Position numbers and translations under genes: made by a program. DNA of 43,609 nt from an uncultured Pseudomonadota bacterium (GTDB lineage Bacteria; Pseudomonadota; Gammaproteobacteria; Ga0077536). The notes under the pieces were generated by a model. That model was not told where the DNA came from. It worked only from the letters and a program-made list of their open reading frames with translations, and made no database searches. Where the stretch lies: positions 1-43,609 of the forward strand of contig CAJWTO010000007.1 of NCBI GenBank assembly GCA_913047675.1, given 5' to 3'. Position 1 is the stretch's first letter. Each line of letters opens with the position of its first letter. Shown piece after piece: positions 4,744 through 20,016 of the stretch.

Positions 4744-7338
4744 ATGCAAGATTTTTTAACTGAACGATACGATCCCACGTTAATAGAGGAGGCTTTTCAG
4801 AGCGATTGGGAAGCCAGAGGCGCGTATAGGGCGCAGGAGGATCCGGATCGAGAGAAGTTTTATTGCTTGTGTATGTTTCCCTACCCTAGCGGGCGGCTGC
4901 ATATGGGTCATGTTCGGAATTATACAATAGGTGACGTGATCGCACGATTTCAGAGAATGAATGGAAAAAACGTGATGCAGCCTATGGGTTGGGACGCATT
5001 TGGTTTGCCGGCGGAGAATGCGGCCATAGAGAATGGAGTACATCCGGCTAAGTGGACGGATCAAAATATAGCGTACATGAGGTCTCAATTGCAGCGACTA
5101 GGTTTCGGTTACGATTGGCAACGAGAATTAGCAACTTGTAAAACCGAATACTATCGTTGGGAGCAGTGGTTTTTTTTGAGGCTTTATGAGAAAGGTTTAG
5201 TATACCGAAGTATCGCGACCGTTAATTGGGATCCAGTAGATGAGACTGTTCTCGCCAATGAGCAGGTAATTGATGGCAGGGGTTGGCGATCGGGAGCATT
5301 AGTCGAGAGGAAAGAGATCCCCCAGTGGTTTCTTAAAATAACCGCGTATGCAGAAGAATTATTAAATGAGCTAGATAATCTCGAGGATTGGCCGGATGCG
5401 GTAAAGACCATGCAACGGAATTGGATAGGTCGGTCGGAAGGTTTGGAACTGAAATTCGCTTTGATTGGGTTGGATGACTCGCTCGAGGTTTTCACGACGC
5501 GGCCAGATACTTTGTATGGTGTCAGTTACATGGCAGTTGCACCCGAGCATCCACTCGCTTTGTCTGCAGCGGCGGCTGATGATACGGTCGCAGAGTTTCT
5601 TAATGAATGTAAACTGCAGTCTACAACAGAGGCTGCCCTAGAAAAGATGGAGAAAAAAGGCATTCCATTAGGCATAAATGCTCGACACCCCCTTACTGAC
5701 GAGTCTATTCCTGTTTACGTGGCAAACTTTGTGTTGATGAGCTATGGGACCGGCGCAGTGATGGCAGTGCCGGCTCACGACCAAAGAGATTGGGATTTTG
5801 CTAAAAAATACGATTTACCTATTAGGCCCGTCATATCTTGCGGGAATGGTGAAATACCTGATGTTTCTGACCGGGCGTATCTTGAAAAAGGGGAGCTTGT
5901 ACAAAGTGGCGTCCACTCAGGATTAAGTTTTGAAGATGCCTGTGAGTCGATTATTCAGTTCATGGAGTCGAATGGGACTGGCGTTCGTCGGGTACAGTAC
6001 CGTCTGCGCGACTGGTTGGTTTCCAGGCAACGCTATTGGGGTTGTCCTATACCCGTGATGTATAGCGAAGATGGAACGGAAATCCCAGTCTCGGACGAGA
6101 TGTTGCCTGTAGCCCTTCCAGATGATGGGCAGGGGACCCCACTATCTAATATCAAAGAGTTTGTTGAGACGGTTTTACCTGATGGGACTATTGGACGCAG
6201 AGAGACGGATACGTTCGATACTTTCTTCGAATCTTCGTGGTACTTTTCTAGATTTTGTTCGCCAGATCAAGCGAATATGATGTTAGATGACAGAGTAGAT
6301 TATTGGATGCCCGTCGATATTTATATTGGCGGAGTGGAGCATGCTGTGCTACATCTTCTGTACGCCCGTTTTTTCCACAAAACAATGCGAGATGCTGGGC
6401 TGGTCAGGTCAGATGAACCTTTTAAGAAACTTTTAACTCAAGGCATGGTTTGCAAAGAGACATATTACCGAGAAATGGGTAATAGCCGAAGGCAGTATTT
6501 TTCGCCTGAAGAGGTGGAGATAAAAACTGATTCCAAAGGTGTTGCGCTAAGTGGTGTTTTAAAGGCTGATGGCCGCGAGGTAGACATTGGCCCGATAGAA
6601 AAAATGTCCAAATCTAAAAATAACGGAGTTGATCCGCAAGCCCTAATAGAAAAATATGGCGCTGATACGGTCAGATTATATACGATGTTTGCTGCGCCCC
6701 CAGAGCAAACATTAGAATGGTCCGATACCGCGGTGGAGGGTTCTTTTAGATTTTTAAAGTCTCTCTGGAGAATGATTTTTGAACATGTCAAATCTGCTAC
6801 TCAAAATAGAAGAACTTATAAGAAGGATGAGCTAGATCCTGTGTTAGTAGAATTACGAAGACATATTCATCGAACTATCGTAAAGGTAACAGATGATATT
6901 GGTCGACGTTATAAGTTTAATACAGCTATAGCGGCCGTGATGGAACTGGTAAACCATTTAAGCAGAGTGAATGCCGATGATAGTGACACACTTGCTATTA
7001 AACAGGAGGGATTTGAAACGGTATGTAAACTTATCGCACCGGTAGTCCCTCACATAGCAGCCGCAATTTGGCGTAATTTAGGTTCTAAGGAAGATCTTTT
7101 GTTAGCAGGTTGGCCAGAAGCCGATCAGAAAGCTCTAGTAACGTCGGAGATTAATATAGTTGTTCAAGTTAATGGCCGTAAGCGAGCAATCATTAGTGTT
7201 CCTACTGACGCGACGAAAGAAGTTTATGAATCGATGGCTCTTGAAGATGATAATGTAAAGCGCTTTACTAAAGACCAAACTATTCGCAAAATGATTGTTG
7301 TGCCTAGTAAACTGGTAAATATTGTAGCGAGCGACTAA
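4744..7338 (+). CDS. leuS: Leucyl-tRNA synthetase
   Basis: HMGH signature ([24 protein letters not shown]), [16 protein letters not shown] motif, editing domain. Confidence 0.98.
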
Positions 7339-7340
7339 CG

Positions 7341-7853
7341 ATGTTCAATCTGAGACATATTTTGGTGACGCTAGTAATCTGCGCATTACTTAGTGCCTGC
7401 GGCGGTTGGCGTCTTCGTGGGACAACAACCTACGATAACATGGACGTTTCAGTCTATGTTAAGCAAAAAAATGCTCTTAATGTTTCAAATTCATTGAGTA
7501 GGCAATTAGCGCTCTATGATATTGATCTTGTGGGCCGAGCAAAGGCAGATTTTATCCTGACTATTGCAAATGAAAGTTACGAACGAAGACTATTGTCAGT
7601 ATCGACCCAAACGGGAAAGGCTCGCGAGATCGAGTTGATAATTAAGGTAGATTTTGATTTACGTACCGCCTCTGGCGCATTAGTGCTACCGATCGAAACT
7701 TATACAACCCGAAAAGATTTCATATTTGATGAGACATCGATTTACGGTACGAACGAAAATGAGAAAGTGCTGAAACGCTCTATGTCAGAGGAAATCGCTA
7801 CTATGCTAATTTCACGAGTAGTCTCTGCACTCAAATCTTATCAGGCGCGCTGA
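7341..7853 (+). CDS. lptE: LPS assembly lipoprotein LptE
   Basis: Lipobox LLSAC followed by the LptE-like GGWRLRGT; position between leuS and holA. Confidence 0.9.
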   Translation: MFNLRHILVTLVICALLSACGGWRLRGTTTYDNMDVSVYVKQKNALNVSNSLSRQLALYDIDLVGRAKADFILTIANESYERRLLSVSTQTGKAREIELIIKVDFDLRTASGALVLPIETYTTRKDFIFDETSIYGTNENEKVLKRSMSEEIATMLISRVVSALKSYQAR

Positions 7854-7858
7854 GCGAC

Positions 7859-8896
7859 ATGAAAATGTCTGTCACCACCCTAAAGCAGCGTCTTTCTAGT
7901 ACTCAGCTCGAGAAGCTTTACTTTTTATGCGGTGACGAGCCTATTCAGTTAATGAAATGTCTAGATGTCATTAGAAACAAGGCTAAGGAAGAGGGCGTCA
8001 CTGAGCGACTAGTTTTTCATGTCTCCGGCCTGTCTGATTGGGAATCCCTTGGTGCTGAAATTAACTCAATGTCTCTATTTGCTGAAAAAAGATTAATAGA
8101 GGTTCGGATGGGCTCAAAAAAACCAGATAAGCTGGGGATATCTGTTCTTAATCAAATTACTCTGAGTGATAATTTTGATGATCGGTTTGTTATTGTTTTA
8201 GAAAATAATGAGTCTTCGATAAAAAAAACCAAATGGTTTAAAGCACTTCAGTCCAGTGGTGTTTTTTTTGAATCGAAAATGCTAGATAGTTCTGCGTTAT
8301 CGCATTGGATTGTCACCACCGGTAAAGAGCTTGGGGTGGAATTTTCACAAATGGCCCTTCAGCTTTTTTGCGAACGGGTTGAGGGTAATCTACTTGTTGC
8401 CTCGCAGGAGCTAGAAAAACTGGCTTTGGCAACATCCGGGGAAAGAATTGAGGAAGACGAGATCGTCAGTTCAATGAATGATAGTGGAAGTTTTGATATA
8501 TATGATCTAACAAATACTTTATTACGAGGCGATTTGTATCGGACGTTAAGAGTTGTTCGGCGGTTGAGGGAGATTGGTGTCGAACCAGTATTAATTATCT
8601 GGGCTATTGTAAGAGAATTGCGTTTGCTAGCTACTATTATTGCAGAGGTAGAAAACGGTAGTTCTGTCGCGAAACTTATCGATAGCGCTAGAATCTGGGG
8701 CCCGCGAAAAGGTGCGTTTGAAATATTTATACAGAAGGCCACGGTCGCACAAGTACTGAAGTTACTTCTGCATGCCAATTATATTGATACCGTGATAAAA
8801 GGAGCGCGTCTAGGTAGTGTATGGGATGAGATCGAAATCCTTTCGTTAAACATCTGCGATATTATGTCGTTTTCAAAGTTAATGGTTAAAGATTGA
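7859..8896 (+). CDS. holA: DNA polymerase III subunit delta
   Basis: HolA-like sequence (LYFLCGDEPIQLMKCLDVIRNKA; VEGNLLVASQELEKLAL) and conserved leuS-lptE-holA order. Confidence 0.93.
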   Translation: MKMSVTTLKQRLSSTQLEKLYFLCGDEPIQLMKCLDVIRNKAKEEGVTERLVFHVSGLSDWESLGAEINSMSLFAEKRLIEVRMGSKKPDKLGISVLNQITLSDNFDDRFVIVLENNESSIKKTKWFKALQSSGVFFESKMLDSSALSHWIVTTGKELGVEFSQMALQLFCERVEGNLLVASQELEKLALATSGERIEEDEIVSSMNDSGSFDIYDLTNTLLRGDLYRTLRVVRRLREIGVEPVLIIWAIVRELRLLATIIAEVENGSSVAKLIDSARIWGPRKGAFEIFIQKATVAQVLKLLLHANYIDTVIKGARLGSVWDEIEILSLNICDIMSFSKLMVKD

Positions 8897-17101: not shown

Positions 17102-17212
17102 CACAATGTAAATTATGCTAGTAACCACCTTTGCGCCTAAGGCTTAGTCTTCTCATCTACTACGCTCAGCATACAAATAGAGATTAACAGCGCGCATCAC
17201 AGAGCTTTCTAA

Positions 17213-17515
17213 ACCTGGTTTTGGAGCGCTACCTTGCCGCCCGAAACAATTTTCCGGTGCCCGTTACCGGGCTGGGACAAAGTTGAAACTCACATTGCCG
17301 TTCAGAGCGGGCAAGATGGGCTTGGCGCATGGCATAGCCACACGCGCAATATCTACGATGATTACGAAAAAGGGGTTGGCGGCGAGATGCCCGGCAAAAT
17401 TGTTGGCGTCTGGGTTATCGGCAACGCCGTTTTTGGGCGACGCCAAGCTGATGCCGAGTTTGCAGATGTGACAATCAAAAACGCTCAGGTCACCAAAGAT
17501 ATATTTACAGATTAA
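17213..17515 (+). pseudogene. 5'-truncated DUF3047-family remnant
   Basis: The frame TWFWSATLPPETIFRCPLPGWDKVETHIAVQSGQDGLGAWHSHTRNIYDDYEKGVGGEMPGKIVGVWVIGNAVFGRRQADAEFADVTI resembles the DUF3047 C-terminal region. An in-frame TAA at 17210 cuts off the N-terminal part. Confidence 0.6.
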
Positions 17516-17648
17516 TCATCGGTTCATTATCTAATCAAACCAGACGGGTTAGATGACACTGGTTAGGCCTGCTTATCGAGTGTCACAAAACAATATTCTC
17601 CATGAGATATAATTTTATAATAAATTCTTGGACGAGAAATATCCCTCA

Positions 17649-18287
17649 ATGTTTATTAAGATTTTAAAGACTTGTGTTCCACCGGTTTTAATCATTGCGA
17701 TTAGAAGATTAAGTTCCATCTTTACAAATAAGTTATTCGATGGCGATGACATTTTATTTAGGGATGAAGTTACAAAAGTGGATGTGTATGGCGAGTATGG
17801 TTGTGGAAAATCAACTAAGTGGGTGCTCAACAACACAGTCGCCGATGTGATAGCCGTTGATACAGCAAGCGAATGGGTTGGTGCTGTAAAAAATGATAAT
17901 CAAAGCAACAACAATAGGCTAAATATTCACCATTCTAACTTAGGCGATGTTGGTGGATGGGGATACCCATTAAGTTATGAAAAGATAGGCTCTTTTTCTG
18001 ACTACACTGATTATATTTGGAAGCAAAAAAAGACTCCAAAACTTGTATTGGTTGATGGCAGATTTAGAGTTTGCTGTTTTCTTACAAGCCTAAAGTTTGC
18101 TAAAGAAGGAACAAAGATTCTTTTTGATGATTACACTAGTCGTCCTCATTATCACTTCGTAGAGAAATACGTCAGCCGTTTTAAAGAATATAGGCGGCAA
18201 TGTATGTTTGTGGTGCCTTCAAAGGCTGAGATTGATATGGTTGAGTTAGAAAAAGATATTGTTTCTTTTAGAAATGTTTTTGATTGA
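17649..18287 (+). CDS. Putative class I SAM-dependent methyltransferase-like protein (orphan)
   Basis: VDVYGEYGCGKSTKWVLNNTVADVIAVDTASEWV followed by GGWGYPLSYE, LVLVDGRFRVCCFLTSLKFAKEGTKILFDDYTSRPHYHFVEKYV matches the E(Y)GxGxST-W ... VDGRFR ... DDY layout of a methyltransferase-like family. Start could be TTG 17628 or ATG 17649. Confidence 0.6.
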   Translation: MFIKILKTCVPPVLIIAIRRLSSIFTNKLFDGDDILFRDEVTKVDVYGEYGCGKSTKWVLNNTVADVIAVDTASEWVGAVKNDNQSNNNRLNIHHSNLGDVGGWGYPLSYEKIGSFSDYTDYIWKQKKTPKLVLVDGRFRVCCFLTSLKFAKEGTKILFDDYTSRPHYHFVEKYVSRFKEYRRQCMFVVPSKAEIDMVELEKDIVSFRNVFD

Positions 18288-18334
18288 AACCTACCAATCA
18301 CCTTTTCTCTGACTTACAAAAGGATACAAAGACA

Positions 18335-18553
18335 ATGAAAGCTGAAATTACATATTGTGGATTATGAAACTATAAGCCGGAAGCACTCCGTGTGGGCGCT
18401 CGACTGACGGCGTTGGGGTGTAGCCTAGCCCTAGTGGAAAGTGGAGGAGGGATATTTGATATCACTATAGATGGGATGTTGAAGTTTTCAAAAGATAAAA
18501 ATAAATGTACCGGTTTCCCTTCAACCAACGAAATTGACGAAATGATTGCTTGA
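18335..18553 (+). CDS. SelW/Rdx-family selenoprotein with in-frame TGA (Sec) at 18365-18367; absent from the ORF track
   Basis: Read-through translation MKAEITYCGLUNYKPEALRVGARLTALGCSLALVESGGGIFDITIDGMLKFSKDKNKCTGFPSTNEIDEMIA*. It has the N-terminal beta strand plus CxxU redox motif, and the Rdx C-terminal GGGIFDITIDGxLxFSK...GFP. AGGA precedes the ATG. Confidence 0.85.
18382..18400 (+). promoter_or_regulatory. Candidate bacterial SECIS hairpin
   Basis: AGC-A-CTC-[CGTGT]-GGG-C-GCT: stem-loop with a 1x1 internal loop (C-U-C/G-G-G pairing includes a U-G wobble), 5-nt loop with G at its second position. The loop starts about 21 nt after the TGA. Confidence 0.45.
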
Positions 18554-18620
18554 GGCAAATTCTTTTCACAGGAGAAGTAATTGGGAAAGGAACATTTAAT
18601 TACCGAAGGGGCGGCGTTCC

Positions 18621-19298
18621 TTATTCAACTTTGGACTGTCCTTGGGGGAGGGACTGCATATAATAAAACGCAAGTAAAGCCCCTAAAATTTGGGCCGAGA
18701 TAAAAATTGGTACAGAAATGAAGTTTATTCCCGTAAAAGTGTCGGTAAACACCCTAGCAATAGTGACCGCGGGGTTAGCGAAAGATGTCGATGCGGTAAA
18801 CCAGTAACCTGCCGTGATATACAACCCTACCGCGGGGGCAACAAGGTATCTATTTACCTGTATGGTCCGGATGATGACAAATACCAAGCCAAAAGTAGCT
18901 ATAGCCTCAGACAGGAAAAAATTGTTATTGTCGCGAATATTTTGCGAGAGTTCCCAAGCGGGTAGGTCAAACATTATGTTTGCTATCCAAGTCCCTACAA
19001 TACCACCAAGTATTTGACACCCGACATATAAGGCCAGCTGACGCTTGCTTATCGTACCATGCATCCACATGACTAGGCTCACCACCGGGTTAAAATGTGC
19101 GCCAGAAATCCCTTGGAATGTCCAGATTAAGACGACGAGGCCAGCTCCGGTCGCCAAAGTGTTCGCTAATAAAATTATGGCTTGATCATTAGATAACCTT
19201 TCGCCCATTATGCCGGAACCAACAACTATCATCACCAAAAAGCACGTGCCAATGAGTTCCGATGACCCGTGAGCCCAAAATGTTAAATTGCACGACAC
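18621..19298 (-). CDS. MIP-family aquaporin, AqpS-like
   Basis: GTCFLVMIVVGSGIMGERLSNDQAIILLANTLATGAGLVVLIWTFQGISGAHFNPVVSL and AGYWFTASTSFANPAVTIAR. NPV and NPA half-motifs; overall resembles AqpS-type (arsenic-associated) aquaglyceroporins. Confidence 0.85.
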   Translation of the reverse strand: MSCNLTFWAHGSSELIGTCFLVMIVVGSGIMGERLSNDQAIILLANTLATGAGLVVLIWTFQGISGAHFNPVVSLVMWMHGTISKRQLALYVGCQILGGIVGTWIANIMFDLPAWELSQNIRDNNNFFLSEAIATFGLVFVIIRTIQVNRYLVAPAVGLYITAGYWFTASTSFANPAVTIARVFTDTFTGINFISVPIFISAQILGALLAFYYMQSLPQGQSKVE

Positions 19299-19683
19299 GA
19301 AGACAATTCTCTACTCTATTGGAAAATTACAACATACTCTTGGAAAGTTTCGTCTTTATGACATGTTTGCTATCAGATATGTGAGGTAGCTATCGCGAAA
19401 AAGGGAGCGCGGGCCTTATGTTCGGCGACATATATATAATCACCCACTCGTGTACTTGAGAGACGGACTTAGTTTCTATCGGCTAAAAAGTTGTTAATCA
19501 AGGGACGATTCGACGAGCGAGACGGTTCCTACCTAATACTTCACCCTATGTACACGCATTATTATATAATACCCAACGTATTGTATTTCCTACATGTGTG
19601 ATTTGCCTATCTATCGTGACAGGGCCGTGAATTTTTTGCGTAGAGGCAAAATTCGGCGAGTAATTTTTTGGAGATGACGACAA

Positions 19684-20016
19684 ATGCCTATTTATGAATA
19701 TCAGTGTCAATCATGCGGACACAAACAGGAGATTATGCATCGTATTAGTGAGACGCCGTCGCTAAAGTGTGCCGCTTGTGGGGCGAACGAATTGAAAAAA
19801 TTAATTTCTGCAGTAGGCTTTCAGCTAAAAGGAACCGGTTGGTACGAGACAGATTTTAAAAATAAGGGCGGAGCAAAAAGTGAGCGTACTCCGGGAGAGT
19901 CAAATTCTGAGAAAGCGGCGTCTGACAAAAAAGATTCCAATGCTGAGAAAAAAAGTGCTGTCAGTGAATCGAAGCCGGCGAGTAAGAAGTCGGATGCGGC
20001 TAAATCAGATAACTAA
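19684..20016 (+). CDS. FmdB-type zinc ribbon protein
   Basis: MPIYEYQCQSCGHKQEIMHRISE...CAACG zinc ribbon with Lys/Ser/Ala-rich low-complexity tail; upstream of aspS. Confidence 0.93.
   Translation: MPIYEYQCQSCGHKQEIMHRISETPSLKCAACGANELKKLISAVGFQLKGTGWYETDFKNKGGAKSERTPGESNSEKAASDKKDSNAEKKSAVSESKPASKKSDAAKSDN

Follow-up and report, generated by a model that had tools for sequence, protein, structure and literature searches.

The window analysed here, a stretch of 43,609 nucleotides, holds no standard ORF in the ORF list on its plus strand at 18335-18553, where a frame of 72 codons contains a single in-frame TGA. The question is whether this TGA ends translation, marks a gene in decay, or is read as selenocysteine (Sec). 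We approached it by computation, through the frame, its homology and conservation, the fold of its product, the Sec machinery of the genome and the constraint on silent sites. The locus is almost certainly a functional SelW-like (Rdx family) selenoprotein gene, in which SelB and Sec-tRNA would insert Sec at residue 11 by way of a hairpin in the mRNA.

The reading frame and the SelW/Rdx family

When the sequence was re-read, the predicted coordinates and the 72-codon frame proved exact, with the ATG at 18335, the TGA as the codon of residue 11 and a final TGA stop at 18551-18553 (Table 1). The in-frame TGA is the codon of the second redox residue in a CxxC/CxxU motif. As had been claimed, this motif is a redox motif of the form Cys8-x-x-TGA11; according to the sequence and an AlphaFold model, it is located close to the N terminus, in the loop that joins strand 1 to helix 1. 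The original prediction had also seen homology on both sides of the TGA and had proposed an alignment to Rdx families. The Pfam Rdx profile matched residues 4-71 of the read-through product (E 3.4e-9) with 37.2 bits, above the curated gathering score of 22.6. The part after residue 11 includes the segment FSKDK...GFPSTNEIDEMIA.

In searches of the family profile against known structures, 2fa8 was matched with an E-value of 2.6e-12 and mouse SelW with 2.3e-6. The AlphaFold model (pLDDT 92.3) has the order strand-helix-three strands-helix, with the first strand at residues 2-8 and the first helix at 14-26. A Foldseek search of the PDB with this model returned SelW/Rdx family chains as the top 23 matches, followed by thioredoxins, and the TM-scores to bacterial SelW/Rdx chains were about 0.8. 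The product is thus predicted, on the basis of the model, to have the thioredoxin-like SelW/Rdx fold. The same fold is shared with the Cys-type Rdx structures 2fa8 (Atu0228), 2oka, 2obk, 2ojl and 2p0g at this TM-score, but these proteins have Cys where the window gene would have Sec, and the motif context in their group is YCTQCRWLLRA instead of YCGLUNYKPEALR. Mammalian selenoprotein W (2npb) and MIEN1/C17orf37 (2ljk) also belong to the Rdx family and have the thioredoxin-like fold in common with the product; they are distant, however, and their vertebrate binding partners are not transferable to the window protein.

That the family is not new, as the original prediction held, agrees with the GOS marine survey, in which SelW-like proteins form the largest prokaryotic selenoprotein family (427 sequences, CxxU; PMC2398784). 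In a later marine survey, they account for 11.3% of the selenoprotein genes (PMC9402790). The product has in common with the GOS SelW-like proteins (Pfam PF10262 Rdx) the CxxU motif, the Rdx fold, the length, the marine occurrence and the predicted TGA-encoded Sec. No essential difference from SelW-like prokaryotic selenoproteins was found, and the window copy is a divergent one, its identity to the copies of other genera and of most of its own genus being 40-54%. The locus genuinely belongs to a marine selenoprotein family that is already known and abundant; the result is a sound re-annotation, and the kind of gene is not new.

The scores against the NCBI models were lower. The subfamily model TIGR02174 (CXXU_selWTH) gave 31.5 bits against a cut-off of 34.2, while two sister copies exceed it, L015 with 49 bits and L018 with 52. 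The best NCBIfam model was the equivalog NF041051 (SelTWH_Campy, E 8.4e-16), but since its 58 bits are below the cut-off of 88, the window copy is not a member of this equivalog. Because both SelW scores are below their cut-offs, annotation would probably miss the gene even if the TGA were allowed. The expectation that standard gene callers miss the locus was borne out by the missing plus-strand ORF, and pipelines would probably lose the gene twice, by the in-frame stop codon and by a score just under the curated SelW cut-off. The locus shows why such genes would be lost. The Campylobacter jejuni SelW (CJnc60), which corresponds to NF041051, is likewise a short SelW of Sec type that was initially unannotated, and it is translated past its UGA according to Ribo-seq and proteomics (PMC11955535), which makes it a direct precedent for the window gene.

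Table 1. Positions of the gene, its proposed elements and neighbours, and of Sec-related genes elsewhere in the genome (genes with an in-frame TGA are candidates)
Feature	Location	Strand	Remarks
SelW-like selenoprotein gene (predicted)	window 18335..18553	+	72 codons, single in-frame TGA, TGA stop; Pfam Rdx, dN/dS, fold
Shine-Dalgarno-like AAGGA	window 18320..18324	+	10 nt 5' of ATG; from sequence
CGLU, CxxU redox motif (Cys8 to Sec11)	window 18356..18367	+	strand 1-helix 1 loop; Cys8 and TGA position invariant
TGA, predicted selenocysteine codon	window 18365..18367	+	TGA in 42/42 homologous loci, no Cys; full Sec machinery in genome
Putative bacterial SECIS hairpin GC(A)CUC[CGUGU]GGG(C)GC	window 18383..18399	+	silent-site freeze, pair counts, energies
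DUF3047 C-terminal fragment	window 17234-17512		in variable stretch
Orphan ORF	window 17628-18287		in variable stretch; no Pfam match; TGA stop
Aquaporin-family gene	window 18621-19298	minus	in variable stretch
Second SelW-like gene (L055)	C2:52228-52428		one TGA; between cinA and amidase; ~40% identical to window copy
AhpC/TSA-type gene, TGGU (L065)	C48		single TGA at redox motif
AhpC/TSA-type gene, WUPYC (L066)	C17		single TGA at redox motif; adjoins SelD fusion gene
AhpC/TSA-type gene, WUPYC (L067)	C23		single TGA at redox motif
AhpC/TSA-type gene, WUPPC (L073)	C14		single TGA at redox motif
AhpD-like gene, CHYU (L078)	C5		single TGA at redox motif
AhpD-related selenoprotein, CFYU	C58 (L010) 6956-8059		NF041238 AhpD_rel_CFYUT, E 1.7e-96
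tRNA-Sec (selC)	C58 12705-12798		anticodon TCA
Oxidoreductase-SelD fusion	L012 1399-3630, contig C17	minus	744 aa

Conservation of the TGA and selection on the frame

Of the homologs, 15 genome loci came from a single collection, and a search of the order gave 27 matches; each locus was counted once. All 42 loci, which comprise 35 distinct sequences, have their TGA at this codon, and none has Cys there. Each homolog, those of Burkholderiales included, has exactly this one TGA. Of the two kinds of homolog that the original prediction had expected here, with Sec or with Cys, only the Sec kind occurs within the clade (42/42). Few or no Cys homologs of SelW-like proteins in Sec-using organisms were already known (PMC1794560).

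In the wider class sample, 38 Rdx genes without a stop were found, all outside the SelW-TGA family. The nine of these that were read share the context YCTQCRWLLRA, and because this context differs from that of the window gene, the Cys-type Rdx proteins are assigned, from their sequences, to another subgroup with a different CxxC surrounding. Within the order, selA was detected in 31 of 36 genomes and a SelW-like gene in 26 of 36. The sole near-complete genome without selA (G018, 100% complete) also has no SelW-like gene. Three genomes have a SelW-like gene and no selA match, with a completeness of 81-87%.

The selection on the frame was analyzed by comparison with L014, whose protein is 97% identical. 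The two genes differ by 9 changes in 219 nt, all of them 3' of the TGA; seven are synonymous and two non-synonymous, giving a dS of 0.19 and a dN of 0.014 for the part after the TGA. The other two reading frames show no such synonymous excess. Judged from these substitutions, the part after the TGA is under purifying selection. Together with the Rdx match and the shared TGA, this puts the signal far outside what chance would give.

These facts bear on the possibility that the locus is a decayed pseudogene of a Cys-type Rdx protein, in which a chance TGA has taken the place of a Cys codon. Such a history would be in line with the Cys forms without a stop that make up most Rdx proteins of the class sample, and with the position of the gene in a strain-variable stretch. 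However, a decayed gene would not be expected to share its TGA with every homologous locus, nor to keep a frame whose dN is far under its dS after the TGA and which has no other stop or frameshift, nor to stand in a genome with the full Sec machinery. The original prediction had argued that a random stop would rarely fall on this codon, and had named frameshifts or other stops in sister strains as evidence to the contrary; in sister homologs as in distant ones, the frame is intact and has this single TGA. The pseudogene reading is refuted by this conservation as far as the sequences tell, and we regard it as highly improbable.

Selenocysteine machinery and the candidate SECIS

The genome (G000; 2.15 Mb, 138 contigs, 87.9% complete) was searched for selA, selB, selC and selD, as had been proposed, and all four are present. 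A tRNA-Sec with anticodon TCA was identified by both Rfam and ARAGORN on contig C58, which also carries selA (565 bits) and selB (419 bits), both above their cut-offs. A second Rfam match to tRNA-Sec, on C106, was dismissed as a tRNA-Ser(TGA) by ARAGORN. The SelD domain (288 bits, above cut-off) is the C-terminal half of an oxidoreductase-SelD fusion. This fusion has a pyridine nucleotide-disulfide oxidoreductase domain and is seemingly a Cys form; among SelD fusions, those of this type, with an N-terminal NADH-dehydrogenase-like part, are the commonest and nearly always have Cys (PMC4561486).

Besides the two SelW-like genes, six Prx-like and AhpD-like genes contain an in-frame TGA, in every case at the redox site. 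The CFYU AhpD-related gene lies immediately upstream of selA-selB, and the tRNA-Sec farther along the same contig. By these sequences, the genome would encode at least eight selenoprotein genes, a lower bound since the selenoproteome was sampled through family searches. The analysis thereby adds a SelW-like selenoprotein, its paralog and this selenoproteome to an uncultured marine gammaproteobacterial lineage.

There is another conceivable interpretation of the TGA: it could be a true stop that separates a ten-codon leader from an internally started C-terminal part, or it could be read without selenium by a near-cognate Trp or Cys tRNA. TGA is indeed read as Trp in some bacteria. Here, TGA also terminates the frame itself at 18551 and other genes of the window, such as that at 17628-18287, and because of this use as a stop it is not reassigned. 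Moreover, the spacing between Cys8 and the TGA is that of CxxU, and the TGAs of the Prx-like and AhpD-like genes all fall on redox sites as well. We consider this interpretation very unlikely, and the reading of the TGA as Sec is followed below.

Silent sites after the TGA were analyzed in 26 non-redundant sequences. Codon +7 is CTC in all 26, codon +8 is CGT in 24 and CGG in two, codon +9 is GTG or GCG throughout, and codon +10 is mostly AGG. The pairwise codon identity from +7 to +9 was 0.85-1.0, whereas 0.23-0.35 was predicted from usage. Codons +7 to +10 were the best run of four in the region, and 0 of 1000 synonymous-codon redraws were as extreme, a figure that serves as a guide and not as a strict probability, as the redraw test ignores relatedness.

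The frozen block would form the apex CUC[CGUGY]GAG, whose 5-nt loop begins 21 nt past the UGA and has G at its second position and U (or G) at its third. The loop of the window copy, CGUGU, occupies nt 25-29 counted from the UGA. In the published bacterial SECIS model, a small apical loop opens with G then G/U at a distance of 16-37 nt from the UGA (PMC13188914), and the 21-nt spacing and the GU found here agree with it; the two CGG-for-CGT exceptions retain GG, which the model also allows. The stem of the window copy, GC(A)CUC/GGG(C)GC, has 3+2 bp around an A-C mismatch, where the model asks for an upper stem of 4-16 bp. Its hairpin alone reaches -2.5 kcal/mol (other members alone, -5 to -8), where the model asks for -7.5 kcal/mol or lower. 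With outer pairs the energy is -8.4 to -11.8 kcal/mol, which is not the free minimum: the best hairpin-containing fold of 56 nt has -11.8 kcal/mol against -13.4 kcal/mol for the free fold, with pair probabilities of 0.06-0.11.

When the sequence 3' of the TGA was folded locally, its energies were not better than those of shuffles, and RNAalifold found no consensus structure over all homologs and a 3-bp stem in a family-only run. Since these analyses gave no support, the claim of a SECIS is based on the silent-site conservation. The share of paired cells was 81.7% in the proposed register against at most 59.1% when the register was slid by up to 3 columns. There were few compensatory changes (one pair) and little true covariation, and covariation is therefore not claimed. 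The predicted position of the SECIS is well supported by the aligned sequences, while the exact stem in the window copy is proposed only tentatively. At the sequence level, the CTC-CGT-GYG-AGG block provides a handle on the SECIS of this SelW clade.

We infer from the family how the gene would work. SelB with Sec-tRNA would recognise the mRNA hairpin just 3' of the UGA, and Sec would be put in at residue 11. The 72-residue product would be a minimal thioredoxin-like Rdx protein, in which the pair Cys8-x-x-Sec11 probably alternates between a selenylsulfide and the reduced form; its predicted role, by this analogy, is that of a small thiol/selenol oxidoreductase engaged in redox catalysis. A 2026 review lists SelW-like proteins as a family predicted with high confidence whose functions are not yet known (PMC13188914). 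Missing Sec machinery, lack of an Rdx match and a broken frame had been named in advance as findings against a selenoprotein; instead the machinery is present, Rdx is matched and the frame is kept.

Genomic setting and origin of the window copy

The nearest genome at the locus (G033) is 89% identical in DNA up to window position 17212, just past a tRNA-Lys, and is unrelated beyond it. In another genome (G034), the tRNA-Lys directly precedes fmdB and aspS, which begin at 19684 and 20101 in the window. As the first genome diverges past 17212 and the second has tRNA-Lys and fmdB side by side, the stretch that holds the window gene, about 2.5 kb long, is variable. The homology to the L014 locus (genome G032) covers 300 bp (18303-18603) at 92%, with unrelated flanks. 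The cinA-amidase locus houses the second SelW-like gene of this genome as well as the SelW of G033 and G031, and looks like the standing SelW locus of the genus.

Searches for a phage- or plasmid-like carrier gave no phage match and no relative in viral contigs. Flanking direct repeats were not found, and inspection by eye of the edges of the 300-bp block showed no attC core site (GTTRRRY) of an integron. In the family tree, the window copy groups with that of G032; a looser grouping takes in the cinA-locus copies of G030, G031 and G034, and its own paralog is in neither. The tree has too few columns to separate duplication from transfer. The copy could possibly have arisen by duplication with divergence or by transfer. 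A tentative proposal, to which we give somewhat less than even chances, is that the genome has acquired in it a second SelW that is accessory, mobile or duplicated. The window copy and its closest relative have only 300 bp in common, and the surroundings there are different; small genes decoded with Sec may thus move among these bacteria as stand-alone units, each with its own SECIS.

The strain-variable stretch itself spans 17212-19680, between the tRNA-Lys and fmdB-aspS, and contains the selW gene together with the three neighbours listed in Table 1.
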